A DNA stretch of 64,000 nt from Entoloma clypeatum (lineage: Eukaryota > Basidiomycota > Agaricomycetes > Agaricales > Entolomataceae): the NCBI GenBank assembly GCA_963565915.1, contig OY751496.1:2666001-2730000 (forward strand), given 5' to 3'. A program made the position numbers and the translations under genes. Every line of letters starts with the position of its first letter. Within the stretch, counting starts at the first letter, position 1. The notes under the pieces are model-generated. The model worked only from the letters and a program-made list of their open reading frames with translations. It was not told the origin of the DNA and did not search any database. Below, in pieces: positions 15,998 to 63,653 of the stretch.

Positions 15998-16449
15998 CAC
16001 CACTGTCTGGGGACAGTACGAGGCTGACAAGCACCCTGCACTGGCACGTACAAATAAGCGCAAATTGATTGCGCTATAGAGGACGCGTTGGCATGGTAGC
16101 TCACTAAGTAACTGGGTTGTACATTTGTCTGCTGGGCCGTACTATAGTCAATGTCATAATCATATCATTTTTCTCATTTTTTGTTCTGATTACGAGATTG
16201 GTTATGGATGATGCAAGTAACAAAAAGAACAATTAGATTACTAGATTAGATACACACCAGCCCCACAAACAATATCGCAACTAGGTTACACAGCAGACAA
16301 GCAATCTGGGTACATAGAGAGCCTGTAACGAGAGTACACATGTGTCCCCTATTATGAATATTTGCTGGGTTACGCCGCCATCTCGCAAGAAATCCCGCAA
16401 TCAAACTGCGCACCTGCAATGTACCGAGTGGGCCACTAAGCGGCCGATT

Positions 16450-17670
16450 AGCGGCCACTTGCCGATACATTAGCGGGCCGTTTCATCGAAAAATTATCGC
16501 CCTTCAAAAAAGTAGCAAAAGTAGCACTCGTTGTGAGCGAGGTGATTCAACTTGTGATGCGGTTGACTGACCACAATCTCTGCTAGTAGAAAGTCCTGCT
16601 CCTTGCTCCCAAGTACGGCTTCTCCCTTGCCGTATGGAAGAGTTGGGACTTGGTCTTTCCATAGATGTGGAGGGTCCCCAGCGATGTTCCGTTGCGTCTG
16701 AGTGCGCAGATCGTATAGTGAGGTTGAGTGTCGCTGTTGGAATCATGGCATCCTGATCTAGATCAACCGCTGTGGTCAGCTCAAGTTGGTAGAACAACGA
16801 ACAAATAACTTACACAAGGATCCAGTCAAGGCCCTGGTAGCTAGTGTGAATCGCCGAATGAGCGTACAAGGCGCGACGAAAACCGCGTCGAACGATCTCC
16901 AGATCGAGAGGATGTTGTTCTGGGTAGTCTCCAAGGCTCCCCAACATGAAAAGGCGAGGGTGCATCATTGGTGAGAGTGGGGATGAGGTTCCTAAAAGAG
17001 TTCAAGACAGCGGGAAAAAAAGCTCATCACCAGTCAAACCAAACGAATAGATGCAGAACATTGCCACAGCACAGTAGTCTGGATAGTATCAAGGGGAACA
17101 TAAAATTCGATCTGACATCAATACTTCGAGGGATAATCATCTTCGGCGATGCAAAACGGCTCAGACCTAGATACAAGCGATTGGATGGGAGGACTTACCG
17201 AAAAGAAGACGGCGGTGGCTCCAAGGCGTCGTTTCTCCTCTATGTTGGGAATATCCATGGAGGAAAGGTCCCAAGAAATTAAATCAGCTTGTATGGAAGA
17301 AATCCACAAATTGAAATGTAAACCATGGCTTGTCGTAGTAGATGTGGATGCACTAACTACGGTCTGTAAGAGGTAATATAGATGTGAGATCCCCTTGACC
17401 AACTCAAGCGTAGCTTACCGCGTATGTCCTGCGCCTCTGCCTGTATGTCTCGCATCAATGTTCAATGGCAAAGCATGCAATCACTCACCGGACACCTTGA
17501 CGTCATCCACCCAAGAAATATCGCCGCATGTCAGGCCTTCAGGAGCTGACATGAAATCTGGGAGCTCCAGTATCACTACACAAAGGCCATTCGTATTTTT
17601 CCTTGTTATTCAGATATCTACTTTTTGTTCTATGTATTCGTTCTCAACAGATACCCTATTCTCGAACCTG
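16450..17670 (-). CDS. Possible multi-exon gene inside left TIR (mirror of 61.9-63.15 kb)
   Basis: Read outward from the element interior, several segments link across GT-AG junctions: a segment containing MDIPNIEEKRRLGATAVFF joins one with IEFYVPLDTIQTTVLWQC, then MMHPRLFMLGSLGDYPEQHP, then a C-terminal segment with HYTICALRRNGTSLGTLHIY. No family recognised. The opposite strand also has open frames and shows similarity to the gene at 59.2-59.5 kb, so strand is not settled. The region may be a decayed gene copy. Confidence 0.3.
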
Positions 17671-17770
17671 TTCTGAGAAAAAAATTGAACCTACTAAAGC
17701 TGACTTGGGGCGGGTGGTTCGACGTTGTTGGCAGCAAGAGGCGGGGAGCTGGTGCTTACCGATTATTCAA

Positions 17771-17963
17771 TTGTGACATGTGACGCTATCACCCTCATCC
17801 CACTTCGGTCCAGCACCTATGAACCATGGTTCAGAATGTAATCTAAATAATTTGTATACACCCCCATTGATACAAAAAGCATTATCTCTCTCTTGAATGA
17901 ACAGCCCCGAGTTCATCTTAGTTGTCATATAATTCGATCTTTGAGGGCGTGACGCCATCACAT
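17771..17963 (-). mobile_element. MITE-like repeat, copy 1 (in left TIR)
   Basis: About 193 bp with imperfect inverted ends (TTGTGACATGTGACGCTATC and, from the other side, GTGATGGCGTCACGCCCTC-like sequence). The core contains GATCGAATTATATGACAACT on the minus strand. Related copies lie at 53.02-53.21, 56.33-56.51 and 61.70-61.89 kb. No coding potential, so probably non-autonomous. Confidence 0.6.
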
Positions 17964-18555
17964 CACCCAAGTAACTTGTGATGGAAAACACGAATCACCA
18001 TCCAGCGCGTAAGGAAGGGGTACTCAGCTTCTGTATAAATGTTCTTGTTGAGCACCAGTAAGATTCTTTGGTTTAATCTCGCCTGCTTCCATCCCTTGCT
18101 GCAGGACGCAAAGCCGCAAAGCCCCACCAATACAGAAGAAAGTCGCTCGCCCTGTTGGTGGTGGAAGTAAGACAAGAGGAAAAGAAAATCACCGATCATG
18201 ATTGCTAACCTGATGTAGTGAACGATTTTGAGTTACGGCATGCAGATCAGTTCATGATATCTCGTGCACTTCAAACTCCGCTGCCGCCTCTCCCCTTGTC
18301 TCATACCATCATCATCCTCTGGCGCACGCATTCATTGCCTGTCTGAATTTCCTTGCTTTGTAAGATACCCGAGTTATATCAATTGTAGTGATAGTCTCAT
18401 TCGTATTATGTACAAGCACAGGATCACTGGAATGCAAACGGTGCGCAGTCACACCAATCAGGGGCATTTTGATCTTACCATTTAAAGCGCATGTTTGCAG
18501 ATTATTATAGGGAAGAATTTCCCCCCCAAACTCATGTGTCCCCCCAGAGTTTGCC

Positions 18556-19419
18556 ATGCCTGAAGATCCCGAAGTTGGAAAATTCCTCAAGAAACTCAAA
18601 GTGGATGAAGACTTGGGAGGACCTGATGTTGATGACGATGGTAACACAGCGCCAGCACCCACAACACATGGCAAGACTATTCCTCCGACCTCGCCGGCGA
18701 CATCCAATACTACATGTGAGATTTAAAACTTTTGATATTACATCATGCTCAAGAAGCGCAGACAGATTGGAGATTAGGCCCGCCATGTTTTCCACCGGAT
18801 CGGAAGAGAAGAAGTACACCTCGTTGACAGTAGATAGCAGCCGTTATTCCGGTTGCAAAGATATTCTTCCAGCTACGTATGACCGAGAGACACCCCATTC
18901 AATCTCAAGATCCGAAGGGAATGAATGGGCTTATCTGTTGAATAGAAACAAAGAAGGTCAAGAGAGGCAAACTTTTGACCATCGCAGCTGGCCATGTACG
19001 TCGCTCCCCTCTCAAATGCGATCTACCCTTATGGTTCTTATTTTGATAGCATGCCCTTGTTATACACTTCGGTTTGGAAGCACATCTTGTGCAGATGACA
19101 AGGGCATTATATGAAGAAATCATTGGCGCCGAGATTCCAGGGAATAACAAGGACAAAGATAAAGCTGAGGCATTGCGATCTTTCCTTGTTCCAGAACGGC
19201 TCACTGTTCTGGGTTCATCAATCGTGCGCCCGCGAACAATCAACATATTCGCCTCATTCGTATCAAGGCGAAAGGCTTGGTGTATAGTGGACTTTTCGAG
19301 GCTTGTTCGACTACATGTCATTAGCCGCGATGAGTGCTGGACATCATCTGATTTATTACCCTCTTTGCCAGTTTGTTGTTTTCTTTTCCATCAGCCATTT
19401 GTCAACCATTTTGAATTTC
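18556..19419 (+). pseudogene. Unassigned multi-exon gene, 5' part, cut by element 3
   Basis: From the ATG at 18556 (MPEDPEVGKFLKKLKVDEDL) an acidic exon runs to about 18711, with a GTGAG donor. A second exon after GCGCAG near 18750 encodes a polar segment up to about 18993. A third stretch from about 19052 (HALVIHFGLEAHLVQMTRAL, then EEIIGAEIPGNNKDKDKAEA) is open to about 19310. The junction between the second and third does not keep one frame, so the gene may be decayed. The first exon up to LKK is shared with the right repeat. The gene appears to continue at 32818 beyond element 3. Function unknown. Confidence 0.42.
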
Positions 19420-19952
19420 TGTCACGTAGCGTGTTTCTCAACGTCGGACGAGTCGGAGCGGAGTAGCGGAGGAGCGGAATGCGGTAAGTGCAATGTTGGC
19501 AGAAAGGACCTGGCTTCAACTTGTGCGTTGCGCCCCACTCTTTGATGTGGTCCTCGATTTCGGATTGGCGGATGTCGGATGAGCGGATGAGCGGATGAGC
19601 GGAGGTGACGGAGGGAATGCTCAAAGGCAAGTAGAGACGGATGCGAATGAGGTGTAACGTATGATATTTGAACTGAGGTTCTACGACAGGTTTGTACACT
19701 ATTTATAGTAGACTAGAATGATCAGCATTACTATAAGTGATGTGCAGATATTGGAGTTGACCATCGGAACATTCGGAGTACGGAGAGTAACAAATGAAAA
19801 GTGAACAACATATGTCTACTTGTAAGTATGGTTGAGATGTTACGTAGTAGAAGTATATTCAATATAAATAGAATGTTGTTGGAGCGGATGTCGGAGCGGA
19901 TGAAATGTCGGAGTCGTCGGATAAGTCGGATGTGAATCGTATGGTTATGACA
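19420..19952 (-). repeat. Element 3 3' LTR
   Basis: 533 bp, matching 32270-32802. It has dense CGGA motifs: about 12 occurrences in the ~185 bp from 19443. The ATTTC duplication precedes it at 19415-19419. A purine-rich tract (read on the minus strand) abuts it at 19953-19966. Confidence 0.95.
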
Positions 19953-20083
19953 GTATTTCCCTCTTAGGGCCGAACCCTGAGGCCCAGATGAGGTAATCCA
20001 CGTGACCGTTGGTTGAAAAGCTTTGTGCGTGATCTTTCTCTCTTGTCACCCAACCACAACATCTATCCCGACGCCTATCCGTT

Positions 20084-21102
20084 ATGTCCGCTGAAAACTC
20101 ACCCCTCGCCGCTCTTCGTGCTGAAAGGGAGCGCCAGAAGAAGGTCACCGAAGAGTTGGAGAGGAAACTGCAGGAGGCAGAGGAGCGGGCGAAGGAAGAT
20201 GCAGAGCGCGCGGAGGCGAAGAGGGCGGCGAAAGAGCGGAGACGAGCAGAGAGGAAGGCAGAGAAGGCGAAGGCGAAGGAACCGGTCGCGGGTGCAGGTG
20301 CGGATGCGGAGGCGGATGCGGATGCGGATGCGGCGAGTGCGGAGGTGAAGAAGGTCCGGCTGCAGGGGGTTTTCAAGAATATGCCTGCGAGTTACGAGCA
20401 GGGGAAGGAGGATTGCACCTCCTGCTTGAAAGCGGGGGACTTGTGTTTTTGGCCATCGGAGTGAGTTTTTCCTATTTCTTTATACGCTTCGTTATTAACT
20501 TGTTCTTTAGGAATGACAATGCTTCGTCGTGCTGGCGGTGCCAGCGTTTAAAACGAAGCTGCAGAACGGGAGCGGAAGCGGAGTCGGAGGTGAAGCGGAG
20601 GATGACCAAGGCGGTGAGGGTCGGAAAGGCTAAGGTGGCAGGTGGTGCGACGAAGAACGCGAAGGCGGGATCGTCCAAGGGAGAGGGGACCGCGGAGGGA
20701 TCGCGGATAGCCGCAGCGTCGGAGGAGCCGGAGTTCATGCCGGAGGGGTTTGGTCCGCCGGAGGTGGTCATAGGCACGGAGGTGGTGAGAGGGCTTAGGA
20801 GCATGATAAGGGAGATGCGGCTGATAAAGGCGGAGTTGAAGGAATTGTGGGAGATCAAGGAGCTTTTGACAGTTATCGCGTGGAGGGAGGATTCGGAGGC
20901 TTCGGAGGAGGGATCCGACGAGGACGAGGATGCGGAGGAGTATGATAGGGTATTGGAGGAGTTGGGAAGGGAGGTAGAAGAAGAAGCAGAAAAAGAAGAA
21001 GAAACGAAGAAGCGGAAGCGGATGGAGGAAGCGGAAGAGGAATCCGGATTGGAGTGGAACGAGGAGATGGAGGGGGTATCTAACAAAAAACAGCGAAAGT
21101 AG
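20084..21102 (+). CDS. Zn2Cys6 cluster protein encoded antisense within element 3
   Basis: Two exons, 20084-20460 and 20511-21102, separated by a 50-bp GT-AG intron; joined length is 323 codons including stop. The N-terminal third is a Lys/Glu/Ala-rich coiled coil (ELERKLQEAEERAKEDAER). The intron falls inside a cysteine array that, once spliced, reads Cys-x2-Cys-x6-Cys-x11-Cys-x2-Cys-x6-Cys (CTSCLKAGDLC, then CWRCQRLKRSC). This is the binuclear zinc-cluster spacing of Gal4-type fungal regulators, which bind CGG triplets. The C-terminus is acidic with basic patches (KKRKRMEEAEEE and NKKQRK at the end) that could be nuclear signals. The gene ends 44 bp from the convergent pol stop. Whether it binds the host element's CGGA sites is inference. 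Confidence 0.82.
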
Positions 21103-21146
21103 TTTTTTGTTAGTATAAAATTTTAATAGATTTTCTTTTCTTTTTG

Positions 21147-21618
21147 TTACAAGCGCGATAAGGGGCCTGGCTTAGTTGGTTGAGCGGAGTGGAAGTCCGC
21201 TACCGTATCCGCTGCGTGTTCAAGCTCGGATGTGGGTAACCAAGAAAACTCTTCACTGGTGTCTTCATAACCTAACCAGCGGACGAGGTAAAGGAGTTTG
21301 CAGCGTCGTCTTTTATCGATCTTTGAGTCGACGATTTCTGCAATTTCGTATTCGGTTTCTCCGTCCATCTCGAGCGGAGGCGGAGGAGATTGTATCCGAT
21401 TTGGAATCTCGTTAGGAGTTGCTGGTTCGAGCATGGATATGTGGAAGACGGGGTGTATAGCACGCATAGTGTCGGGTAGACGTAGTGTAAAGGAGTGCGT
21501 GCCGGGTTGGGCTATGATTTCAAATGGGCCAGCATATTTGTCGGATAACTTTTGGGTGGGTCGTGTGGTGCGGAAGAACTTAGCTTTAACAAAGACTTCT
21601 TGTCCGACGCGGAGCGGG
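21147..21618 (-). CDS. Element 3 pol, 3' part with chromodomain
   Basis: The minus-strand frame from 21618 to the stop at 21147 encodes the integrase C-terminal region (VFVKAKFFRTTRPTQKLSDK, AGPFEI) and a chromodomain (YEIAEIVDSKIDKRRRCKLL then RWLGYEDTSEEFSWLP). It is the continuation of the pol at 27719-30928: collapsing element 4 and one GCGGG duplication joins the two frames exactly. It cannot be translated as one protein in the present state. Confidence 0.9.
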
Positions 21619-22052
21619 TGTAAGGGCGACCTTACGATCCAAGACTCAAACTCAGATACTTGCAAGGGAGATCCGAAGTTTAGATTGAGCAGTCTAATAA
21701 GTAATACAACACATACCTTGCAAGGGAGATCCGAAGAGAAAGTTCTAAGGATTCCCCTGCAAGCTAGCTGCGATAAATAGTAAAATGAGATATGAAATAA
21801 GAGATAAAACGAGACACATGAATGATGAGCAATGATCGGGAGTAGCGATGAAGGATGAATGGAAACAAGATGAATGATAGTACCTGCGATCCGACGTGCG
21901 GAGTAGCAGATGGGGGCGGAGTCGTCAGATGCGGAGAGGCGGATAAGATGTCGGAGACAGCGGATACGATCGGAGGACGTCGGAGATGGTGGAATAGAAA
22001 GGAAAGGAGGAAAGTAAAGGAAAAGTGAAAAGTGAAAGTGGTTGCCCTTACA
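21619..22052 (-). repeat. Element 4 3' LTR
   Basis: 434 bp, nearly identical to 27285-27718 (one visible difference, AGCAGATGGGG versus AGCGGATGGGG). Contains a block of about ten CGGA/TCCG motifs in ~110 bp near 21890-21990. Confidence 0.95.
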
Positions 22053-22063
22053 TCACCTCCCCT

Positions 22064-25000
22064 TCAAGGCACGGCGTCTCGACGTGTCAGGCGAAACGAG
22101 TCGAATATCGCAGCGGAGATCCGACGCGGAGCTCCCGGATGACGTCGGTAGAAGTCGCGGACTAGGCACGGAGCGTGGACATTGTCTTCTGCTTCCCAGG
22201 AATTCTCTTCGTAGCCATATCCCTTCCATTTGACCAAGAATTGAAGCTTGCCTCGATGCAGTCGGCTGTCCAAGAGGTTTTCAACATCATACTCCAATTC
22301 TTCTCCCACTACCGTCGGAGGCGGAGGAGAGCGGACTTGGCGTCGGAAAGGGTCGTCGGGAACTAGTGAAAGTTTGACGACGTGGAATACTGGGTGAATG
22401 CGGGACATGGAAGGGGGAAGGCGAAGTTCGTAGGCATGTGTTCCGACAGGTCGGACCACTGGGAAAGGGCCTACGTACCGATGTGCAAGTTTTTTTGTGG
22501 GTCGGGTGGTTTTGAGGTCCGATGAGTCTAAAAAGACCTTGTCCCCCGGGCGGAATGTCGGAGTGGTGCTCCGATGCTGGTTGTAGTATCGCGCCATGTC
22601 GTCCTTTGCCTTTGTTAGTGCTGCGCGAGCCTCTTCCAGAGCGGACTTCATCCGCTCGCTGAAATCCGCTACCGCCTCGATTTCCGTCCGCTTCTCGCGA
22701 GGTTCGAATCCCATGCGCGGATGGCGGCCGGTGTCAATGTAGAACGGAGTTTGACGTGTCGATGCGTGAACATGGTTGTTGTATGCAAATTCAGCCATCG
22801 GAAGCCATTCGTCCCAATCATCTTGACGTTCATTGACGAATAGGCGAAGATATTGTTCCAATCCTTGATTGACCCGCTCCGTCTGTCCGTCCGACTGCGG
22901 ATGGTAGGCTGTCGAGGCAGCAATCTTAATGCCAAGTAGCCTATATAGTTCGCGCGTGAACTTGGCGACAAACTGTGGTCCGCGGTCGGAGACAATGGCC
23001 TCCGGTAGTCCGTGGAGTTTCCAGACGTTTTGAATATAGGAGCGTGCAGTCCCGAGTGCGGAGATGTCGGAGTGCGTCGGGATGAAGTGTCCCCGCTTCC
23101 CTACTGAGTCCACTACCACCATGATAGCGTCGTAGCCGTGGGCTTCTGGTAGTTCAGTAATGAAGTCAACACTGGTTACTTGCCACCGCTCCGTGGGGAC
23201 CGGTAGTGGATTGAGCTCTCCGGAGGGCGGAGTGCGTCGGACCTTGGTGCGGAGGCATGAGTCGCATGTCTTGCAATATTGACCTATTAAACGAGACATG
23301 TGTGGCCACCAGTAATTGCGCGACACCAGTTCCAAGGTTTTCCACCGTCCCGGATGTCCGGCCACTGGAGTGTCGTGGTGTTGTGTGAGGATCCGATGAC
23401 GCAGTTGGGGATTATTAGGAACATAGATACGATCCCTGAAGTAGAGCAAACCTTCCGCTTGCCTCCACTCCGCACTTCGGACGGACCCCGCTCCGACGGT
23501 CGGAAGGGATCTGACGACCTCCGCCACACTATCCTCCAGTAGCCCCTCTCGGATTCCCTGTCGGACCTGGCAGAGGACGTCGCGTTCTTCCCCTTGAACA
23601 GTTACCCCACGCATTGCTCGCACTGCAAACAATTCTGGTCGAAGAAGGATGATGTTTTCGTTGTCCCGCGATCCGTCTCCGTGGTCCGCTCGTCGGGACA
23701 AAGCGTCGGACTTGCCCATTGACTTTCCAGGTCGATGGTGCATTTTAAAATCGAAACGAGCGAGGTATAAGGACCATCTAGCTTGTCGTCGATTTAGTTT
23801 TTGAGCTGTCATGAAGTACTCAAGATTTTTGTGGTCCGTCCAAATCTCCACTGTCTTCTCCGCTCCTTCAAGGAAGTGCCTCCACTCCTCTAATGCGCGG
23901 ACCACTGCCAACATCTCCTTGTCATAGATCTCGTAGTTGCGTTCCACCGGACTGAGGCTTTTGGAATAGAATGCGACAGGGTGCCACTTACCGTCCTCTG
24001 TTGGTTGGGACAGTACTGCTCCGGTTGCAAAGTCCGAGCTATCCGCTTCTACCCGCCACTCCTTTCGATGATCAGCTAAGACCAGGATCGGAGCGGATGT
24101 AATCCTCCGCTTCAACTCCGCAAATGCGGACACTTCTCCTTCCTTCCAAGACCAGAGGTGCCCCTTCTTCGTGAGCTCGAAAAGAGGGCGCGCGATGTCC
24201 GAAAACCCTTCAATAAAACGGCGATAGAAGTTAGTGAACCCCAGAAAGGACTGTACTTCTCGGACGTTTGTCGGAGCAGGCCACTCCGCGACCCCCGCTA
24301 CTTTCACCGGATCCATCTCTACGCGTCCTTGTTCAATAATAAGGCCTAAGTATTCAATGCGCGTTTGCTCAAACTCGCATTTCTCTGGTTTTAGATAGAG
24401 TTTGTGTTCGTGAAGTCGTTCCAGTACAATCCGTGTGACCCTCCGATGTTCCGCAAGGGTCTCCGTGAAGATGAGTATATCGTCAAGGTAAACACAAACT
24501 ACACCTTCAGTGATAAGGTCCTGAAAGATCTCGTTCATCATAGTCTGGAATGTGGATGGACTATTAGTGAGGCCGAAGAACATCACCAATGGTTCATAGA
24601 GTCCGCGATTGGTCCGAAAAGCGGCCTTCCACTCGTCTCCGGGCTTTATCCGTACATTGTTGTAACCCCAGCGGATGTCGAGTTTGGTGAAGTATTGAGC
24701 GCGTTGAAGTTTATTGATCAGTTCGGATATGAGCGGAAGCGGATACTTGTTTTTGATAGTTTTGGAATTGAGTGACCGGTAGTCTTGTACAAGACGAAGG
24801 GAGCCATCCTTTTTCTTGATATAGAACACCGGAGATGCCATCGGAGACTTGGAAGGGCGGATCCGACCAGTTGCAAGGTTTTCCTCCAAAAACGCGTCGA
24901 GTTCTTTCTGTTCGTTCGGGGCGAGCGGATATACCTTACAACCCGCCGGAGAGGCGTCCGGAACAAGTTCAATGGCGTGGTCCCACGTCCGCTCTTCCGG

Positions 25001-26134
25001 TAAGGTGTCGAAAGAGGTCTTTGAGAATACGTCTTCGAAATCAAACAAGTGGTCTGGTACGGAATCGCGGAAAGATTTGGGTTTCTGGTTACTGAGGAAG
25101 GCCTCCGATAGACGTTGCGAGATATTGGATGAAGCGCGGATGAACTCCGCCTCCGCAGGTACTGTTCCGACAAAAAGGCGGTCTCCCTCCTCAAACTCAT
25201 CCTCTTCCTCATCGTCTTCCGCTAACTCCTCCGTTTCTTCTCCTTCTGTGACATCCTCCACCCATGGGCCGCGTGGAGCCTCCTCCTCTAGACCGGACGT
25301 CGGAGTGGAACCCATCCGACAGGCTCGGATGCGGACTTGTTCGAACTTCCGCTCCTTCCGCTCTTGGGCTGCCTCCTGTTGGCATGTCCGACATCGTGCA
25401 GGACACCGGCTCATCTTCACTTCCCCTGAAGTCCAATCTACCTCGGGGTTGTGTTCTTTGAGCCAAGTGAAGCCTAACACGATTTCTTGTTTTCCCAAAC
25501 TTGTGACTGCAAGCTGGGTCCGTTCCGAGTGATCCCGATAGCGGAGCACTACGTCCAACACCTCCGTTATTGCTCCGGCCTCATTCGGAGTTCCGTCGAT
25601 GTTGTATACCGGAATTGCGCGTTGTAGTTTTCGAGTAGAGAGTCGGTGTTTCTCGACCAGAGTACGTTCAATAAACGATCCTGTTGCCCCACTGTCGAGT
25701 AAGGCCTTTTGTGATAGTATGTCTTTAGTGTCGGTAGTTTCGAGAACTATGTCTAGTTCGAGGGAATTGTCGGAGCGAGCGGCTGCGGCGAGAACATATT
25801 GTTTTGGAAGCCGCCGCTCCCACTTAGAGAAGCGGATGCGGATAGGGTTTGCGGAGTTGGGTGCGACTATAGGATCGTTTGCAGGCTTAGAGATGGAGGG
25901 TATAGGATCATATTGTTCCATAAATAAGGCAGCATAACGATTTTTAGTAGACAACGAGGGCGCACTGTTCACTCGTTGTGAGGAGGAAAATCCTCCTGTC
26001 CTCCCTCCGACTCCGCAGACTCCGTGGGCGGAACGGAGTTGCCTTCCGCCGCGTCCTTGACCACGAGTTGTTCCATGATAAACTCGTCTTGTTCCTCCAT
26101 CGTCATGAATCGGACGTCGAAGCGAAGGGGGCAT
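22064..26134 (-). CDS. Pol of element 4
   Basis: The frame is open for 1,356 codons from 26134 to 22064 and overlaps gag by 166 nt. Entry is probably by -1 frameshift near the end of gag. Domain order: protease (LLDSGATGSFIERTLV), RT (CVYLDDILIF; FGLTNSPSTF), RNase H (EADSSDFATGAVLS), integrase zinc finger (HPGRWKTLELV; CDSCLRTK), integrase core (DFITELPEAHG; SDRGPQFVAKF; a Glu in GQTERVNQGLEQYL) and a C-terminal chromodomain (FLVKWKGYGYEENSWEAED). The stop at 22064 is 12 bp from the 3' LTR. No disabling stop was seen. Confidence 0.95.
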   Translation of the reverse strand: MPPSLRRPIHDDGGTRRVYHGTTRGQGRGGRQLRSAHGVCGVGGRTGGFSSSQRVNSAPSLSTKNRYAALFMEQYDPIPSISKPANDPIVAPNSANPIRIRFSKWERRLPKQYVLAAAARSDNSLELDIVLETTDTKDILSQKALLDSGATGSFIERTLVEKHRLSTRKLQRAIPVYNIDGTPNEAGAITEVLDVVLRYRDHSERTQLAVTSLGKQEIVLGFTWLKEHNPEVDWTSGEVKMSRCPARCRTCQQEAAQERKERKFEQVRIRACRMGSTPTSGLEEEAPRGPWVEDVTEGEETEELAEDDEEEDEFEEGDRLFVGTVPAEAEFIRASSNISQRLSEAFLSNQKPKSFRDSVPDHLFDFEDVFSKTSFDTLPEERTWDHAIELVPDASPAGCKVYPLAPNEQKELDAFLEENLATGRIRPSKSPMASPVFYIKKKDGSLRLVQDYRSLNSKTIKNKYPLPLISELINKLQRAQYFTKLDIRWGYNNVRIKPGDEWKAAFRTNRGLYEPLVMFFGLTNSPSTFQTMMNEIFQDLITEGVVCVYLDDILIFTETLAEHRRVTRIVLERLHEHKLYLKPEKCEFEQTRIEYLGLIIEQGRVEMDPVKVAGVAEWPAPTNVREVQSFLGFTNFYRRFIEGFSDIARPLFELTKKGHLWSWKEGEVSAFAELKRRITSAPILVLADHRKEWRVEADSSDFATGAVLSQPTEDGKWHPVAFYSKSLSPVERNYEIYDKEMLAVVRALEEWRHFLEGAEKTVEIWTDHKNLEYFMTAQKLNRRQARWSLYLARFDFKMHHRPGKSMGKSDALSRRADHGDGSRDNENIILLRPELFAVRAMRGVTVQGEERDVLCQVRQGIREGLLEDSVAEVVRSLPTVGAGSVRSAEWRQAEGLLYFRDRIYVPNNPQLRHRILTQHHDTPVAGHPGRWKTLELVSRNYWWPHMSRLIGQYCKTCDSCLRTKVRRTPPSGELNPLPVPTERWQVTSVDFITELPEAHGYDAIMVVVDSVGKRGHFIPTHSDISALGTARSYIQNVWKLHGLPEAIVSDRGPQFVAKFTRELYRLLGIKIAASTAYHPQSDGQTERVNQGLEQYLRLFVNERQDDWDEWLPMAEFAYNNHVHASTRQTPFYIDTGRHPRMGFEPREKRTEIEAVADFSERMKSALEEARAALTKAKDDMARYYNQHRSTTPTFRPGDKVFLDSSDLKTTRPTKKLAHRYVGPFPVVRPVGTHAYELRLPPSMSRIHPVFHVVKLSLVPDDPFRRQVRSPPPPTVVGEELEYDVENLLDSRLHRGKLQFLVKWKGYGYEENSWEAEDNVHAPCLVRDFYRRHPGAPRRISAAIFDSFRLTRRDAVP

Positions 26135-27123: not shown

Positions 27124-27272
27124 TACTATGCGCGGAGCAGAATCACCGGTTACGGAGAGGTAATTAGAAGAACTGGAAGGGGTGTGAGATGTATCGGAGT
27201 CGGACGCGGACGAAGCTACTCCGAAGCGCGGAATCGTGACAACGATGCAATCGGACCCGGTCCAATTAGATG

Positions 27273-27282
27273 AGAACTTTCT
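27273..27282 (-). other. Primer-binding site of element 4 (self-primed)
   Basis: On the minus strand AGAAAGTTCT begins 2 nt after the 5' LTR. Its complement AGAACTTTCT lies at 27403-27412 in the LTR, 33 bp from the TATA-like TATTTATC (27438-27445). The spacing matches elements 1 and 3. Confidence 0.7.
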
Positions 27283-27284
27283 AC

Positions 27285-27718
27285 TGTAAGGGCGACCTTA
27301 CGATCCAAGACTCAAACTCAGATACTTGCAAGGGAGATCCGAAGTTTAGATTGAGCAGTCTAATAAGTAATACAACACATACCTTGCAAGGGAGATCCGA
27401 AGAGAAAGTTCTAAGGATTCCCCTGCAAGCTAGCTGCGATAAATAGTAAAATGAGATATGAAATAAGAGATAAAACGAGACACATGAATGATGAGCAATG
27501 ATCGGGAGTAGCGATGAAGGATGAATGGAAACAAGATGAATGATAGTACCTGCGATCCGACGTGCGGAGTAGCGGATGGGGGCGGAGTCGTCAGATGCGG
27601 AGAGGCGGATAAGATGTCGGAGACAGCGGATACGATCGGAGGACGTCGGAGATGGTGGAATAGAAAGGAAAGGAGGAAAGTAAAGGAAAAGTGAAAAGTG
27701 AAAGTGGTTGCCCTTACA
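27285..27718 (-). repeat. Element 4 5' LTR
   Basis: 434 bp, followed on the plus strand by the GCGGG duplication at 27719-27723. In the sense direction the CGGA/TCCG-rich block lies in U3 upstream of the TATA-like box. Confidence 0.95.
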
Positions 27719-30928: not shown

Positions 30929-30935
30929 TTTTTTT
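30926..30935 (-). promoter_or_regulatory. Proposed -1 frameshift heptamer A AAA AAA before gag stop
   Basis: On the minus strand the gag frame ends TCA AAA AAA TAG. Slippage one base back on the seven A residues (30929-30935) bypasses the TAG and opens the pol frame, which contains no stop up to the protease. A AAA AAA is a classic -1 slippery heptamer. No downstream pseudoknot was assessed. Confidence 0.68.
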
Positions 30936-48337: not shown

Positions 48338-48349
48338 TCAGAAAGGTTT

Positions 48350-53586: not shown

Positions 53587-56140
53587 CTATGCATCATATT
53601 CCTTCCAGTCCGCCAGTTCCTTTAGATGAGTAGGACGAGGAAGGCGTTCAACCTTGCCAGATTCTCCCCGGAGCAGCTTGTATGGATATCTTCCAGGATC
53701 AATGGTACTCCGCTGGCGCTTCTCCGATGACCAGACAACGGCATAGTTTTCCAATGACTCCGGAAGCTGTGCATTAAAATATTCGAGGGCGTCTCCAAGG
53801 ATTTCCTTGTAGGCATCATAATTGGCCTTGCTGTCTTGATCTATGTCCCTTGAGGGCCATGTGGTGTCAACGAGACGACGGAGAAAGGGGGAAAAAGGCT
53901 TCCAGTATTCGGGAAGATGTCCCGCAATTTCTTTATCAAAACGGAACAAATCGATAGCCTTGTCCTTGGACAATTGCTCACGGTCATGTTCGTTGTACCA
54001 GCGTGCAATCGGAATGTGCTTGTTCCAGTCTTGTGTCTGGCCGCAGGGCCCCACAGTGAAGGTGACGATGCCAATGGTAGTGTGCAGTAGTGCCTCGAGA
54101 TCTTCGCCAGGACCATACTTGTAGTTGCCACGGCGGCCGGGGTCCAATGAAGTCAGCGGCATGAAAGGAAGGGTTCCCTGAAGCAAGGTCAGAATGAGGA
54201 TCAAAGAGAAAGGAAGATCATGGCTCACGGAACACCTATCCAGCACGGTGTCAAGGTCCCGGGCACAATCGTAGTCGATAACATTACCCACAGTGGGTAT
54301 GGGTTCACTCAACCCTTGTCGGGGAGCGGGTCTGGGGAAGGCTTCTGGTGCACGATAGATCATCACATTGTTGATACTGATGTCTCCATGAATTATCTTG
54401 CACTTGTCATGCATCCAGTGAAGCCCTGTGAAGCGATTGAATGAGTCTTGAGTTAACATTACAGGAAAGGTACTTACATTCGACGGCATCGTAGAGAACC
54501 TGGATGAGCTCGGCCCTTGAGCGAAAGGTGGTAATAGGGTCGCCGACAGGACCAGTGACAACGCGACGATGCACACGCTCAGAAGAAGACTTCTTCCGTA
54601 GCTTTCCTCGTCGATGGTGTGTAGAGTCTCCGAGTTCTTGTCCCGCAATAAACCGGGGATGCATGTCTTTATACTTTGCGGCATCAGGGTCGATCTCCAT
54701 CTCTCGAGCAATACGTTGGAGAACTTTGATCTCGGACGTTCCGAATGCAGCAAGGACCCATGAGTCCTTGAGAATATGAAACCCTCCCCTCTCGTCTGTC
54801 ACAAGAAATACTTGAGTACCACGGCTGAAGAGTAGCAGAGATGAATGTATCTCCTTCACAACTTGGAAAACTTCGTCATTAACCATGATCTTCATGACGT
54901 CACCAGTGAGGGGGTTGACGATCATGGACGTGTCAACGCCAATAACCTCCGGTTTGGCATAGGCAAGGGCAAAGATAATTCACGCGAGAGCGACAGCATT
55001 GTAGCCATCATTGGCATACCAATCCGTCCGTACAACACCTGCCCGGTCGACGAGCATTAAACAAAACTTCATCGCCTGCCTGGGCCCATGAAAGCTAAGT
55101 GAGACGAGGAAACGGCGGAAGGGTTGAGCTTGGAACACGAGGGAGGACTTCTCCATGATCTGCCCAAGCATGTTCTTCTTTTTATAAGAGGTTGAAGAGC
55201 GGGAAGTCTCGATAAGTGCCTGAATGTGCTGCCATCGTGGTCGACGGCCTCCTTGCGCAAGAAAGTGTCTGACAGTTCGATCTAACAGGATGGTGTCGGG
55301 CTTGCGATACTTAAAGCCACCGCTGAGTCCTTTGTTGTGTGCCACCGTGCTGAACGAACAATCCGATGCCCTATCGATAACAAAGGCCTGCTTGGCAGCC
55401 CTTGAGTGGCCATCTTGGTTGGCTTTCTCCTGATCCTCGTCCTCAACACTAGTCATTTCGATGCTACCCTCGCTGTCGCCCTCATCCTCGCTGCCACTCC
55501 TGCCACTCTCCCCCTCCCCGTCACTCTCGCCATCAATCTTGCTCCCTTCAGGGCGGATAAGGCCGTGGCTGAGACCGAGAGATTGTGTCATATGGTTCAG
55601 CCAGTTCTGGATGCCTTGTTCTGACATGCTCAAAGGTGCGTTGCGAAGTTTGGATTCGGCTTCATCCCAGTACCCGTTAACATCCTCGTTGAATGGGACG
55701 GGTAGAACATCGTCCGGGAACAAGGCCTTGGAAACCCACGACAAATCACCTTTGATGGTGGGTATCTTAAGAGGGTCGGAGAGGAGTGAGTTGGGAACAG
55801 TGGCGTTGATGTCTTGGCGGAGTGGCTCGCCGGAGGAAAGAGTAGTCTCAGCAGCTTGAGAAGACTGGGTAGTTGAGATTGGGCTCAAGCATGGTGCAGG
55901 AAATTCGTTCTCAATGTACTCTGGGAACCGTTCCTTCTGTGTTAAAGTAGTCCAGAACACCGGATTCGGAAAGGTAGGATGATTATAGCGGGCCTTGTTA
56001 TCGGTGGTGGCATTGGAATTCCTGGTGATGTTCTTTTTATCCAGTTCCATGGAGGAGAAATGGAATTCAGAGGTAGTTTCAGATTCGTCAAAGTCATTGA
56101 AGCAGGCCCTGTCAACGACAGATTCCGTTGGATGAGGCAT
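53587..56140 (-). CDS. FunK1-type fungal protein kinase, with in-frame TGA
   Basis: Starts at the ATG at 56140 (MPHPTESVVDRACF). A long N-terminal half is followed by the kinase part: DKCKIIHGDISINNVMIY (catalytic loop with His-Gly-Asp), VGNVIDYDCARDLD (in place of DFG), and GRRGNYKYGPGEDLEALLHT (substrate-side region). These match the FunK1/Pkinase_fungal family expanded in mushrooms. Introns lie near 54475-54430 and 54220-54180. At 54981-54983 an in-frame TGA interrupts VALA and IIFALAYAKPEVIG, where the family normally reads on. Either the gene is dead or a CGA-to-TGA change is present. It ends at 53587. It is in the giant element's cargo block. Confidence 0.78.
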
Positions 56141-56328
56141 GCTGATGATGGCCGATAAGAAACAATTACAGATTACATAAGGGCAATGCTGTGAATAAAT
56201 AGTGAACAGAAATGAAAATGAACCCGCGCGTACACAACGCTCTCCGGACAGTATCCCCTTCTCCCAGTACTTACTCTGAACGAGGACTACCATTTTTCAA
56301 GTTCTCTCTAGAAGTGTGACTGCTGCGA

Positions 56329-56556: not shown

Positions 56557-58593
56557 TTATATAAGATGCCAACTCCAATCAAATCCACCCAAGTCGAATG
56601 CTAGCTGATTCTCTAGCAAATCTACTCCCCGACGAACAGACACCCCAAGGAGTGGAAATTTGTCACAGCACCTCTTAAAAAGGTTAGTACGATCCTCCCA
56701 TGACGCCTGGTTCAACTGAAGGTACTTGATTGTGGGAAGATGTTGATACCATTCTGTCCACATAGCCTGGACGTATTTTAGCATGACATAAATAGACGAT
56801 AATTTACATACCAGTATATCGTCGTCCAAAATGCGTGTAAACAGACATAATTCAGTGAAGGAGATCCTAAACGTCTTGATGTTTAGTGTTGTGAAATCAG
56901 AGCCCTGAAAGGTGGGCTTATTTTTTGCATCCAGTGCGGCCCGGAAATCTTGTTGCGGCATAGCGACGTCAAGAGCTTCGACAGCCTCGCAAGCAACGAG
57001 ACATCGGAAGACCTCAGAGAATACGGAGGAAGTAGGAATATGACTAGCAAGCAGCGTTAACCTCAAAAGCAATGGTCGGGTGAAGGCGCTGCGCAAAATG
57101 GCCAAGACGTAGGACGGCGGACCGGAAATGGTAGTTAAGGACTGGGCGTCAAATGACTCACCAATATCATCTGGAGTCCTATTGTTTTGACCTTCTATTC
57201 CAACAACAGAAACGTTAGGATGGCGTGATAGGAAGTTGACCAGGAGGGCTAGAGGAGCGTCTTCGCTCAATTTGAGGGATTGCAACTGGGGAAAGTTCTT
57301 TCCCAGGAAAGAGTTCCAGAACTCTTTCGGAAGAGCAGAGGAAGACTGTATCAGCGCAAGTTTTACCAGAGACTTTGATGTATTGATAAGTAGAGGCCTG
57401 AATAGTGGGTGATTTAGGTTGCCATCCAGCGTCAGGTGTGTCAACGGCCAAGTCACGGAAGTCCAGGCGATAATGGGGACGTACATGTTCATGATAGCTG
57501 ACTTCTCCTCGTGAACCAAGCATCTGATGAGAACACTGGAACATTGTGTATGTGCCAGGGCAGCAAGCAGATCAGCAAATGACTTCGTGTCAATGCTGCT
57601 GTATCGGGAGAATTTGAGACTGATGGTCTTGAACATTCCCACTGGGAGGTGAGACAGAGCAAAAGTGAGCGACGATGTCTCGGTGTTGGTATCTACTTCT
57701 TCCCCTTCCTCCCCTTGACAGAATATGGCTGAGAGGTGCCGGCCAGCGTTCCCCAACAAATTCGGGAGGCGATGAAAGGATCGGAAGGCGTTGAAAGAAT
57801 TATGAGAGTTGAGGGTGATATAGCCTTGGTGAAGACGGAAACCATGCCGGGTGAGGTAGGCAGGGAGGAATATGTCCTGAAAAAGGCGACAAACTGAAGT
57901 AAGAGTTTTGACATCCCGACTGTCAAGGTTGTCGCCTATTAGGCACAGGAGTTCGTTGGGTAGGCACTCCAGTATTGAGCACTTCTTGTATAATTAGTTG
58001 GCTTGTATTTTCTCAGCAGAGAAAGGACGTACATGTGATGGCACGACGGACAAGATGGGCGATGATCGAGATCCATGGGTGTTTCTCGGCAAATTCTGCT
58101 AAGATGTTTTGGAAAATCAAACTAGATGATGAACGGGAAAAGCTGACATGTCGTAAAAGGTAAACACGTTCTGGTGACGTCAATTCCTATGCAAGGGTCA
58201 GTGGAAGGTAGAAGTCAAGGGGAAGATCGCACCGTAATGGAGCTATCTCGCCACGAAACTAACGACCTCTTTGGGAAAGGCTCGCCTTCGAAAGTAGTGG
58301 CTTTCCTCTTCTCTTTCTGCATTGGTTGGAATGTCACGTTGATAGTATTGCTCTACCAAAACACGCACCTCGGGGCAATTTATCGAGTCATCCGTCCGTT
58401 GCAATGATGCCTGACGAATGGAAAGCTGAGGCAAATTTGAAGGTAGTGGCAGGGCAGGCCCCAGCGGATTGTGCTCTTGAGTCAAAGACCTAGCATAAAC
58501 CTGGAAGTCTGCGGTGATACGTTGAAGACCAGAGAGTAGGGCTACTGTGGAGGAGGGCCTCTTGGAAGAAGTTCTTCGGGAAATTGTACGCAT
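56557..58593 (-). CDS. F-box protein with leucine-rich C-terminal region
   Basis: The ATG is at 58593 (MRTISRRTSSKRPSSTVALL). Exon 1 ends near 58262 (FPKEV, donor GTTAGT). Exon 2 after GCATAG near 58186 contains ELTSPERVYLLRHVSFS and IFQNILAEFAEKHPWISIIA. Exon 3 opens near 57984 with an F-box-like motif (LECLPNELLCLIGDNLDSRD), then leucine-rich segments over about 400 residues. A further short intron near 56815-56770 precedes the last exon, which ends at 56557. F-box proteins recruit targets to SCF ubiquitin ligases. F-box plus variable LRR proteins are numerous in agarics. Confidence 0.68.
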
Positions 58594-59152: not shown

Positions 59153-60448
59153 CTAAGATCTCGCTACTCCTTCTTTTGAATAGTCCTTGTTAAAAGTAAC
59201 CCATAAATTCCCATACAGATCCTGGAACTCCTCAATTTCATGCCAACTCACGACATGCGGAGATGTTGGCTCATATGGATAGTGATTGCTTGGGTGGATG
59301 ACCTGGAGGTGAATGGTGAGTGATTGCATCCTTCTAATTCCAACAAAGAGGTTTGTTCATGTACTCGGAGCCTTCCCTTCAATCGCAATCTCGTAGCGAC
59401 GTAGTCAACAGCTAAACCGCCATTGGAATCCAGTTTCATCTCAGCTTCTGCAATATGCTGTTCGTCCCCGCGCTTCACATAGGCCCTTATCACGACTGTT
59501 CCTTTGCTATCACTGCCTCCTTTAGCGGTCTTCCTCCTTTTTGCATTGTGCTTGCCAGTTGATGATTTGTCGGCGCTGTGGCATTAAGTCACTTCTTTGT
59601 AGTCTACTTGGGGGGGGGGCCTCTTTGCTCTCACCTTTCGTCTCGTTTTCTTTTAGATGCCTGAGATCCTGGGACTGGAAAGAAGTCCTTCGCTTTCACT
59701 GTATCAATATCTGCCGCGTGGGGAAATCTCATTGACTGACTTGTCCAATGTTTGTGCCCCTAGATGTGATCGCTTCTTCCAATGGCTGTAAGGACAATTC
59801 TGCCCACTGTGGGACAGGGAAGCGTTCATCCTGTTCAACGTCCATCACCACATCGCCATTTGTCATGTTCTCTGGTGCACCACGGGACGGTTCCTTCTTT
59901 AGCTTCTAGGAGAGAACATCAATTGATGCAAGTACATACAGGCATAGGACGTACAAGTCTCAGCTTCGGCGAAAGTGATATTATGATAGTGTCGCCGGTG
60001 TGTTTTATACGCGGTATTATCCTTTGAAATCTCATCAGCCAAGGACAATAATTGACCACTTACACTTAACCTCACCTTTTTCTAAGAGCTGACTTGACCC
60101 GTCGCCTTTGAGTCCCTTCTTCTGCCTCGTCCATTTGGGAATCCCCCCCCCTGGCCTTCGGAGCAACCTTCTGTGTACATAGAAATACAGAGCATCAGCA
60201 TTCAGCACCGCTGTTCTGTTGCATCTGAAACGTATGACAGCAAGCAGGGCTTGTACATAGTCTTCTTTTAATGGCTGCCGTTTTCCTTTCGTTGGCACGT
60301 TTACGGAAATGGTCTGGCATAATTGCTCCAATTGAGCGTTGCGAAACTTATGCAACTTGTGGGCTGTTAGAGATGGTAGTCTGAACGCTTCTTCGAGGGC
60401 GGTGTACGACATGGAGTGTTTCTGCAAATGGTCACAGCGTCCGACCAT
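59153..60448 (-). CDS. Unassigned multi-exon protein, SAP-like N-terminus
   Basis: Starts at the ATG at 60448, or at 60412 (MSYTALEEAFRLPSLTAHKL). The N-terminus resembles a SAP-type DNA-binding helix pair (RNAQLEQLCQTISV then LKEDYVQALLAVIR). Later segments follow across likely introns: GDVVMDVEQDERFPVPQWAE, then GTVVIRAYVKRGDEQHIAEA, then VIHPSNHYPYEPTSPHVVSW and EEFQDLYGNLWVTFNKDYSK, ending at the TAG at 59153-59155. A diverged, shortened copy of the last part lies in both terminal repeats. The SAP call is weak. It may bind DNA for the giant element. Confidence 0.52.
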
Positions 60449-60659
60449 TCTTTAATCTATTTCTTTCCTAAATAGGCAGCTGATAGACCATTGCCGCTTG
60501 ACCAATGGAGAACAAAAAAGGTGTTGGTACATGAGAACACGGATATTGTATTTAGTGTTGCTCCAGACACTTGGTTCAAGAAAGAGTGGTGACACAGAAT
60601 GTTTTTTTCTGCATACCCCCTTCAAGCTGCCTGTTCACGCTTCCCTTTCATCCCCTCCA

Positions 60660-61166
60660 AGTCAGCGCTTTGTGAACATGAGCTCTTGATCAACAAATAG
60701 GGATTTGAAGTCAAACCTTTCATCCATATTCTTACCAGCTGCTTCCAACTTGTTTCTCTCCTTTGTGTCAGGCTCGAATTTGGAGAAATTTAGAAAGCTG
60801 GCGAGAAAGCTGGAAGTCAAGTCAGACAATCCATGACGATTCACTGGAAAGAAATGACTATCAACTCACAGATCCTTTGGGCTCCTTGGCCCCGGTATAA
60901 CTCCGGGAAGAAGGATGTTCTGTTTCTTGAAGCGTGCTTTCATGGGGAGGTCATTGAGAACAATTGCGGACATTGTGGACTGGTAGTGGAGTGGAGCAGC
61001 AGCGGAGTTTGAAATACATGACATATCGTGAACTGATCTGCATGCCGTAACTCACTTTGAGTTTCTTGAGGAATTTTCCAACTTCGGGATCTTCAGGCAT
61101 GGCAAACTCTGGGGGGACACATGAGTTTGGGGGGGGAAATTCTTCCCTATAATAATCTGCAAACAT
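60660..61166 (-). pseudogene. Fragment of a second transposase type beside right TIR
   Basis: From about 61166 (MFADYYREEFPPPNSCVPPE) the minus strand reads to GKFLKKLK at the TIR edge, then a likely intron, then SAIVLNDLPMKARFKKQNIL with LPGVIPGPRSPKDL, then SFLASFLNFSKFEPDTKERN. The VLNDLP...GVIPGP block is homologous in pattern to VMACLNLPPSLRYKPENLFL...GVIPGP of the main transposase, but clearly from a different family (Plavaka-like by memory). It stops near 60660 without the catalytic region, so it is a fragment. Confidence 0.55.
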
Positions 61167-61694
61167 GCGCTTTAAATGGTAAGATCAAAATGCCCCTGAT
61201 TGGTATGACTGCGCACCGTTTGCATTCCAGTGATCCTGTGCTTGTACATAATACGAATGAGACTATCACTACAATTGATATAACTCGGGTATCTTACAAA
61301 GCAAGGAAATTCAGACAGGCAATGAATGTGTGCGCCAGAGGATGATGATGGTATGAGACAAGGGGAGAGGCGGCAGCAGAGTTTGAAGTGCACGAGATAT
61401 CGTGAACTGATCTGCATGCCGTAACTCAAAATCGTTCACTACATCAGGTTAGCAATCATGATCGGTGATTTTCTTTTCCTCTTGTCTTACTTCCACCACC
61501 AACAGGGTGAGCGACTTTCTTCTGTATTGGTGGGGCTTTGCGGCTTTGCGTCCTGCAGCAAGGGATGGAAGCAGGCGAGATTAAACCAAAGAATCTTACT
61601 GGTGCTCAACAAGAACATTTATACAGAAGCTGAGTACCCCTTCCTTACGCGCTGGATGGTGATTCGTGTTTTCCGTCACAAGTTACTTGGGTGA

Positions 61695-61887
61695 TGTGAC
61701 GGCGTCACACCCTCAAAGATCGAATTATATGACAACTAAGATGAACTCGGGGCTGTTCATTCAAGAGAGAGATAATGCTTTTTGTATCAATGGGGGTGTA
61801 TACAAATTATTTAGATTACATTCTGAACCATGGTTCATAGGTGCTGGACCGAAGTGGGATGAGGGTGATAGCGTCACATGTCACAAT
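61695..61887 (+). mobile_element. MITE-like repeat, copy 2 (in right TIR)
   Basis: Mirror of copy 1, beginning TGTGACGGCGTCACACCCTC and ending near GCGTCACATGTCACAATT. Present because the TIR was duplicated with it. Confidence 0.6.
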
Positions 61888-61979
61888 TGAATAATCGGTA
61901 AGCACCAGCTCCCCGCCTCTTGCTGCCAACAACGTCGAACCACCCGCCCCAAGTCAGCTTTAGTAGGTTCAATTTTTTT

Positions 61980-63153
61980 CTCAGAACAGGTTCGAGAATA
62001 GGGTATCTGTTGAGAACGAATACATAGAACAAAAAGTAGATATCTGAATAACAAGGAAAAATACGAATGGCCTTTGTGTAGTGATACTGGAGCTCCCAGA
62101 TTTCATGTCAGCTCCTGAAGGCCTGACATGCGGCGATATTTCTTGGGTGGATGACGTCAAGGTGTCCGGTGAGTGATTGCATGCTTTGCCATTGAACATT
62201 GATGCGAGACATACAGGCAGAGGCGCAGGACATACGCGGTAAGCTACGCTTGAGTTGGTCAAGGGGATCTCACATCTATATTACCTCTTACAGACCGTAG
62301 TTAGTGCATCCACATCTACTACGACAAGCCATGGTTTACATTTCAATTTGTGGATTTCTTCCATACAAGCTGATTTAATTTCTTGGGACCTTTCCTCCAT
62401 GGATATTCCCAACATAGAGGAGAAACGACGCCTTGGAGCCACCGCCGTCTTCTTTTCGGTAAGTCCTCCCATCCAATCGCTTGTATCTAGGTCTGAGCCG
62501 TTTTGCATCGCCGAAGATGATTATCCCTCGAAGTATTGATGTCAGATCGAATTTTATGTTCCCCTTGATACTATCCAGACTACTGTGCTGTGGCAATGTT
62601 CTGCATCTATTCGTTTGGTTTGACTGGTGATGAGCTTTTTTTCCCGCTGTCTTGAACTCTTTTAGGAACCTCATCCCCACTCTCACCAATGATGCACCCT
62701 CGCCTTTTCATGTTGGGGAGCCTTGGAGACTACCCAGAACAACATCCTCTCGATCTGGAGATCGTTCGACGCGGTTTTCGTCGCGCCTTGTACGCTCATT
62801 CGGCGATTCACACTAGCTACCAGGGCCTTGACTGGATCCTTGTGTAAGTTATTTGTTCGTTGTTCTACCAACTTGAGCTGACCACAGCGGTTGATCTAGA
62901 TCAGGATGCCATGATTCCAACAGCGACACTCAACCTCACTATACGATCTGCGCACTCAGACGCAACGGAACATCGCTGGGGACCCTCCACATCTATGGAA
63001 AGACCAAGTCCCAACTCTTCCATACGGCAAGGGAGAAGCCGTACTTGGGAGCAAGGAGCAGGACTTTCTACTAGCAGAGATTGTGGTCAGTCAACCGCAT
63101 CACAAGTTGAATCACCTTGCTCACAACGAGTGCTACTTTTGCTACTTTTTTGA
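61980..63153 (+). CDS. Possible multi-exon gene inside right TIR (mirror copy)
   Basis: Same segments as in the left repeat, on the plus strand. The clearest parts are 62390-62460 (ending with a GTAAGT donor), an exon after TGATGTCAG near 62547, and MMHPRLFMLGSLGDYPEQHP from about 62691. The two copies have the same coding content, so neither is obviously better preserved. Strand remains uncertain for the reason given for the left copy. Confidence 0.3.
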
Positions 63154-63653
63154 AGGGCGATAATTTTTCGATGAAACGGCCCGCTAATGTATCGGCAAGT
63201 GGCTGCTAATCGGCCGCTTAGTGGCCCACTCGGTACATTGCAGGTGCGCAGTTTGATTGCGGGATTTCTTGCGAGATGGCGGCGTAACCCAGCAAATATT
63301 CATAATAGGGGACACATGTGTACTCTCGTTACAGGCTCTCTATGTACCCAGATTGCTTGTCTGCTGTGTAACCTAGTTGCGATATTGTTTGTGGGGCTGG
63401 TGTGTATCTAATCTAGTAATCTAATTGTTCTTTTTGTTACTTGCATCATCCATAACCAATCTCGTAATCAGAACAAAAAATGAGAAAAATGATATGATTA
63501 TGACATTGACTATAGTACGGCCCAGCAGACAAATGTACAACCCAGTTACTTAGTGAGCTACCATGCCAACGCGTCCTCTATAGCGCAATCAATTTGCGCT
63601 TATTTGTACGTGCAGGGTGCTTGTCAGCCTCGTACTGTCCCCAGACAGTGGTG

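Follow-up and report, generated by a model that had tools for sequence, protein, structure and literature searches.

Introduction

Giant gene-carrying transposons of fungi are known mainly as Starships, which are built on a tyrosine recombinase. The terminal inverted repeats of CACTA/EnSpm elements are usually short, and gene capture by CACTA elements is known. Here, we describe a large element bounded by long inverted arms at positions 15998-63653 of a 64,000-nucleotide window of the Entoloma clypeatum genome (C15:2666001-2730000; 60 Mb in 20 contigs), which we call the C15 element. We consider it very probable that the C15 element is a giant CACTA/EnSpm-type DNA transposon that moves by cut-and-paste, and that it belongs to a family with its own gene set and homogenized arms.

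The fungal EnSpm families, as presented in the available part of PMC12730594, are alike in their tnp2 transposase, CAC..GTG ends, 3-bp duplications and miniature derivatives. The giant elements described here differ from CACTA/EnSpm elements in having arms of 2.6-8.2 kb, a net length of 27-35 kb, about six accessory genes and a shared upstream module. Enlarged EnSpm elements with several open reading frames (ORFs) occur in algae, with 16-20 kb and 4-5 ORFs in Chondrus (PMC6431247, in part) and up to 15.2 kb, also with nested insertions, in Ectocarpus (PMC12477816, in part). These are smaller, and the accessible portions of both papers mention neither kilobase arms nor an Spt5-like gene nor a common module. 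Plavaka elements (PF18759) have related CMCT transposases, but their ends, given as TGT..ACA or CATCA..TGATG in the accessible text of PMC12730594, differ from those of the giant elements here. Starships, which are giant gene-carrying fungal elements, have been reported in the basidiomycete Tremella too (PMC13066641, in the part available). They have a tyrosine-recombinase captain, whereas the elements here have a tnp2 transposase, presumably of the DDE type, inverted arms and a mostly conserved gene set; no Pfam match to such a captain was found in the native ORFs and gene models scanned. In the PMC literature, covered mostly as titles and starts of abstracts and excluding most subscription papers and bioRxiv preprints, we found no description of a CACTA element that has arms of kilobase size or carries an Spt5-like gene.

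Results

Ends, arms and target site of the C15 element

Comparison of the window with itself recovered the inverted repeats proposed in an initial annotation, which had been made from the sequence alone, at exactly the same coordinates: the two arms are about 2.6 kb long and 99.3% identical (Table 1). The element's termini are CACCACTG...CAGTGGTG. Both arm ends read CACCACTGTCTGGGGACAGT and TTA stands directly outside each, so that the shared ends and the flanking direct repeat noted earlier are present as well. The terminal 20-mer CACCACTGTCTGGGGACAGT occurs exactly at three places in the genome, the two C15 ends and C6:372140-372159, and with up to 3 mismatches at 12 places, compared with one for a reversed control (whole-genome match counts are lower bounds throughout). 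A 19-bp subterminal motif, which lies about 50 bp inward of the ends, is matched 22 times in the genome at up to 2 mismatches, and its reversed control never.

Local inverted duplication and assembly error can each yield near-identical long inverted repeats that resemble an element. The C15 arms differ by 10 transitions and 2 gaps, without any transversion, across 2598 aligned sites, and because of these differences they must have been assembled as two separate copies. Moreover, the CAC...GTG ends with TTA are exact, and the same architecture recurs on C2 with different flanks. We therefore rejected a local inversion or assembly artefact on the basis of the clean ends, the duplications and the presence of four elements, and regard it as extremely unlikely.

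The initial annotation had also described a host gene cut in two by the insertion. A MYND-finger remnant is detectable in the left flank (PF01753, E 0.021, below the cut-off), and the joined flanks form GTAAAT...CCCAG, a plausible 63-bp GT...AG intron-like stretch enclosing TTA; the insertion probably fell within an intron of this putative MYND gene. Because the coding-looking frames around the putative intron require additional frame changes, the gene may be decayed or our reading of it may be wrong. A search of the same genome for a MYND paralogue returned two matches, both of them the MYND locus itself, and no paralogue that could serve as confirmation. The evidence for a split host gene is thus partial.

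Other family members in the genome

We found three further giant elements in the same genome (C6a, C2 and C6b); three of the four have both arms. C6a (C6:342617-372159), whose main pieces are 96-98% identical to the C15 element, has a left arm only; its right side ends at a poly-G tract followed by a different sequence resembling a long terminal repeat (LTR), and whole-genome searches revealed no second arm for it on C6. LTR elements have inserted into it independently, and it has lost 5.3 kb at a junction that shows a 2-bp overlap. The stretch 33022-38342 of the window, absent from C6a, was considered as a further insertion into the C15 element and rejected: because there is a 2-bp 'AC' overlap at this junction and the C2 element has the genes of the stretch, it was most likely deleted from C6a. 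The C2 element (C2:1507200-1548807) is complete: it spans 41,608 bp, or about 35.5 kb once one LTR element is subtracted, has 8.2-kb arms that are 99.87% identical and the ends CACAGCTGGCAGGGG, and is flanked by TTA on both sides. C6b (C6:465019 to about 525578) is a decayed relative of about 60 kb with arms 96-98% identical over the matched stretches and no right terminus; it was read at both sides, and its middle (C6:477001-509000) was covered through search matches.

The CAC...GTG termini fall into two variants, CACCACTG at C15 and C6a and CACAGCTG at C2, the left end of C6b and miniature elements; literal CACTA is absent. TTA duplications flank the C15 element, the C2 element and a 403-bp miniature element with the same family ends (C6:3158963-3159365), whilst C6a and C6b are each without one end. 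Three more two-ended miniature loci have less clear ends, and two of them lie within a host duplication. Long arms and TTA duplications thus characterize the family and are not an accident of a single locus. The initial annotation had named the lack of any other copy as grounds for refutation; the genome search did not bear this out, as it returned a 96-98% identical copy on C6 and, separately, the complete C2 element with TTA duplications of its own.

More scattered fragments of C2-type arms lie at C8:703887-710338 and C2:5639064-5642986 and are probably relics of additional giant elements. Five loci (L063, L064, L066, L067 and L069, on C5, C10, C2, C10 and C8) have single ends of a second type, CACCACTGGCTG(G/A)GGAC(A/T)GT; these share a common interior, unlike that of the C15 element. 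The end pairs L056 (C2:263953)/L057 (C2:5697903) and L050 (C2:981404)/L051 (C2:1111106) have identical flanks too, which points to duplicated C2 host segments.

The transposase

The predicted transposase matches PF02992 (tnp2) in C15 (E 2.4e-10, 40.4 bits) and in C2 (40.0 bits), above the cut-off of 28.6, in agreement with the Tnp2-type transposase named in the initial annotation. FCSxC, VDSMHN and PNHHxxLH are conserved across an alignment of 8 transposase sequences; they may correspond to the catalytic DDE residues and to the C(2)C and H(3-4)H motifs of CACTA/EnSpm transposases. The C15 ORFs also gave a weak match to PF18759 (Plavaka), below its cut-off. A search with the C2 transposase model (937 aa) scored 7994 candidates, 135 of which are relatives at E <= 0.001; the best six, from metagenomes or unnamed sources, align over about half of the query with 56-60% identity. 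Named relatives among the 120 matches listed are fungi including Gymnopilus, Ganoderma, Pleurotus, Phlebia and Tulasnella, in keeping with an agaricomycete host. Scanning IMG/VR with the transposase relative P0009 gave 7 pattern matches, none of them confirmed, and a PDB sequence search with the transposase gave no match.

Within the genome, six of nine matches to a transposase exon lie in giant elements and three elsewhere. The state of the gene differs among the elements: an LTR element sits in an exon in C15, the 5' part is deleted in C6a, an LTR element lies within or adjoining a predicted intron in C2, and the search shows a fragment of 34 residues only in C6b.

Accessory genes and selection

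All 391 window ORFs of at least 40 aa in the native parts were compared with the C2 element by tblastn. Seven gene groups are homologous between the two elements (the transposase, gene X, gene D, gene E, the F-box-like gene, gene H and the arm gene), with 38-78% protein identity per matched exon. By Nei-Gojobori counts, the ratio of nonsynonymous to synonymous differences per site (pN/pS) between C15 and C2 was 0.30 for the transposase, 0.35 for gene X, 0.34 for gene D, 0.41 for gene E, 0.50 for the F-box-like gene, 0.48 for gene H and 0.42 for the arm gene, with synonymous divergence (dS) saturated in five of the seven groups. Between C15 and C6a, from which gene X has been deleted, seven groups could be matched, with pN/pS ratios of 0.32-0.69; CpG decay may bias these values, and the intervals for gene H, the arm gene and the kinase include 1. 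Genome matches fell inside giant elements for gene X (3/3), the F-box-like gene (9/9) and one exon of gene E (4/4); because these three match giant elements only, no host donor was seen for them. Judged by these comparisons, the "cargo" consists for the most part of conserved genes that belong to the element and not of captured host DNA.

The kinase gene is the exception to this set. Its ORFs exceed the PF17667 cut-off, it has no match in the C2 element, and an 83% relative of the C15 kinase region, with a match to module A (see below), lies at C5:4288654-4291652 (L009), away from any arm found. Because of the missing C2 match and the C5 relative, the kinase may have been captured. The same two observations would fit an ordinary CACTA element in which a host gene block was captured once and of which C6a is the only sister, all the more as capture by CACTA elements is already known. 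We nevertheless consider such a single capture unlikely, since seven groups, under purifying selection, also occur in the far-diverged C2 element, and three of them, searched across the genome, match giant elements only.

Thus, of the "gene cargo" of about eight non-transposase genes in the initial annotation, the genes are present, six with a C2 homologue (the arm gene twice) plus the kinase, but most belong to the conserved set and the eighth corresponds to an unsupported model. Our gene finder fused the C15 kinase, F-box and H genes into one model, and its list of starts is incomplete. The C2 homologue of gene D exceeds the PF00400 cut-off, and the C15 model falls short of it. Genes E and H and the arm gene match no Pfam domain above cut-off. 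A homologue search with the gene E model found none among 7993 scored candidates, and a gene E exon folded from single sequence with a mean predicted local distance difference test score (pLDDT) of 39.8. Each C2 arm has a gene with matches to 2OG-Fe(II) oxygenase and Tet_JBP domains, both below cut-off (L032, C2:1512997-1514495, and its mirror copy); PMC12730594, in its accessible part, reports TET/JBP genes within transposons of fungi.

Gene X of the C15 element itself gave weak KOW matches, below cut-off. It has ten database relatives, of which seven are close (38-47% identity) and come from metagenomes; three of the close ones exceed the KOW cut-off, and distant matches are named as NGN-domain elongation factors. 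The AlphaFold model of the relative P0121 has a mean pLDDT of 64.6, with a poor last quarter. Searching the PDB with this model, we found that ranks 1-24 are, by title, RNA polymerase II elongation complexes or built on them (best E 3.1e-14); two matches are influenza cap-snatching complexes, isolated Spt5 KOW domains also match, and whole-chain TM-scores are low (up to 0.34 by query). Going partly by chain naming, the matched chains are presumably Spt5. The gene X product is, as the modeled fold of its relative indicates, an Spt5-like protein, which may or may not act like Spt5.

The large size, the long inverted repeats and the conserved multi-gene set also recall virus-like giant elements of the Polinton/Maverick or Teratorn kind, one of which could have acquired a tnp2 transposase; Teratorn is a giant element with long inverted repeats like those of C15 (PMC6431247, in the part available). 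However, the native ORFs and models scanned, which did not include every small ORF, held no DNA polymerase, capsid or packaging domain, nor the piggyBac transposase and herpesvirus genes that Teratorn has. The reverse transcriptase, integrase and gag domains that are present belong to LTR retrotransposons. A virus-like origin is, in our view, very unlikely.

Repeat modules

Module B, of about 165-180 bp, occurs at six places in the C2 element (four unique, plus one weak) and in C15 at one strong and two weaker places, plus one marginal; C6a and C6b have copies too. All 11 genome matches to a 202-bp C2 copy lie inside giant elements (C2 6, C6b 4, C15 1). Within module B, the inverted motif TAGTGAACG...CGTTCACTA occurs seven times at up to 1 mismatch per half (once in the C15 window and six times in a 50-kb C2 stretch), and shuffling the letters of the native parts 20 times yielded none. 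Of six unique copies, five have a predicted start no more than 400 bp downstream of them (at 215, 356, 200, 206 and 114 bp), a count reached by 1 of 20,000 random placements. The sixth, 604 bp from a predicted start, does not fit this pattern. Module B as a promoter-like upstream module of the element genes is thus a strong lead from its placement; it is a lead and not proof, because the starts come from an in-house finder that fused some C15 genes. Of the three unique C15 places of module A, just one lies within 400 bp upstream of a start, and because this start belongs to a doubtful model we make no promoter claim for module A.

Arm homogenization and CpG decay

We compared all four arms of C2 and C6b over about 3.4 kb. 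Both arms of each element agree at 107 sites that separate the two elements (94 transitions and 13 transversions), and no site supports a pairing between the elements, be it of the two left arms or of a left arm with a right one. Over the same stretch the C2 arms differ from each other at 1 site and the C6b arms at 112. Because of the 107 within-element sites against none across elements, we conclude that the arms evolve in concert within an element, as shown for the C2/C6b pair.

The three-way comparison of the C15 arms with the C6a arm, which gave 67 sites, was rejected as proof of concerted evolution since C6a is CpG-decayed; the four-way C2/C6b comparison was therefore used. Between C15 and C6a, CpG transitions make up 87 of 106 transitions in a 4.2-kb stretch with 7 transversions, and 52 of 73 and 63 of 76 in two other stretches with 12 and 3 transversions, respectively. 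In three comparisons of LTR retrotransposons the CpG share is 26-31% of transitions. The direction of loss over four stretches is lopsided, with 213 C15 CpG sites reading TpG or CpA in C6a and 33 the reverse. This pattern is most naturally read as CpG methylation of the old C6a copy.

Later insertions and surroundings

Three LTR insertions lie inside the C15 element, each with a 5-bp duplication (Table 1), and C6a has empty sites for 19420-32802 and 38988-45612. Without them the element measures about 27.6 kb, the original size given in the initial annotation; the proposal that the block was a single unit before these insertions gains support from the 5-bp duplications and, for two of the three, from the empty C6a sites.

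The insertion at 38988-45612 and the stretch 860-7484 outside the element form a near-identical pair of Ty3-like LTR retrotransposons in opposite orientation. Left of the element, 7405-10743 holds ORFs of a Copia-type LTR retrotransposon (gag, integrase and SH3-like domains).

Table 1. Features of the C15 element and its flanks (window positions)
Feature	Position	Strand	Remarks
Host flank with MYND-finger remnant	15600..15997	+	start approximate
Left target-site duplication	15995..15997		TTA
Left inverted arm	15998..18603	+	starts CACCACTGTCTGGGGACAGT
Subterminal motif, left	16050..16068	+	ACAAATAAGCGCAAATTGA
Arm gene, left copy	16583..17552	-	163-aa model; conserved part 16583-16991; no Pfam match
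Module A	17779..17952	+	other copies 53030-53189, 56330-56502, 61706-61878
Module B, weaker copy, left arm	18156..18317	+	mirror copy 61340-61502
Later LTR retrotransposon	19420..32802	-	target-site duplication ATTTC; holds nested element
Nested LTR retrotransposon	21619..27718	-	target-site duplication GCGGG
Predicted gene C	33214..34658	+	unsupported model; no C2 homologue
Gene X	34696..37425	-	Spt5-like, with KOW domains
tnp2-type transposase gene	37696..47963	+	broken by LTR element 38988-45612
Later LTR retrotransposon	38988..45612	-	target-site duplication AGAAG
Gene D	48086..49847	-	WD40-repeat protein
Module B between genes D and E	49968..50126		inverted TAGTGAAC motif at 50022
Gene E	50240..52851	+	no Pfam match or database homologue
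Fungal protein kinase	53587..56296	-	PF17667; possibly captured
F-box-like gene	56560..57993	-	PF12937 just under cut-off
Gene H	59156..60451	-	no Pfam match above cut-off
Right inverted arm	61053..63653	-	99.3% identical to left
Arm gene, right copy	62105..63074	+
Subterminal motif, right	63589..63607	-
Right target-site duplication	63654..63656		TTA

Discussion

The termini, the duplications, the transposase and the relatives of the C15 element argue for a giant CACTA/EnSpm-type transposon. Its arms of 2.6 kb, and those of 8.2 kb in C2, depart from the short terminal repeats of CACTA/EnSpm elements, a trait that is usual and not strictly defining. Several further observations weigh against this assignment. 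No uninterrupted transposase gene was seen in the four giant elements (the middle of C6b being covered by search only), and no candidate for a TnpA-like second protein was recognized, with no test aimed at binding to subterminal repeats. The flanks of the single-ended members are not TTA (AGT at C6a, AGA at C6b), and the two-ended members checked for TTA duplications number three (C15, C2 and the 403-bp miniature). Gene starts were taken from a simple in-house finder.

In the mechanism that we propose for a CACTA/EnSpm-type element, the tnp2-type transposase would act on the CAC...GTG ends and leave a 3-bp duplication. Around it the element keeps the Spt5-like paralogue, the WD40 and F-box-like genes, gene E, gene H and the arm gene, for which common ancestry and purifying selection are seen. 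This gene set may support expression of the element in the face of host silencing, acting through the common upstream module with its inverted TAGTGAACG site, a candidate promoter. Most likely, the arms would be kept alike by gene conversion between them during repair of the ends cut by the transposase.

We put forward only tentatively, as a possibility that we do not favor, that the family has its own transcription program. Together with the WD40 and F-box-like proteins, and with TET/JBP-like proteins in the C2 subfamily, the Spt5 paralogue would act through the palindromic module to switch on the gene set against silencing by CpG methylation, and the gene-bearing arms would be duplicated and homogenized in the life cycle.

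This giant, multi-gene, long-armed lineage is a new form of CACTA/EnSpm. With a tnp2 transposase in a 27-35-kb unit that has conserved genes, concerted arms and a shared cis-module, it opens three questions to testing: how large elements cope with silencing, for what reason a transposon carries an elongation-factor paralogue, and how one inverted arm of kilobase size is copied onto the other.

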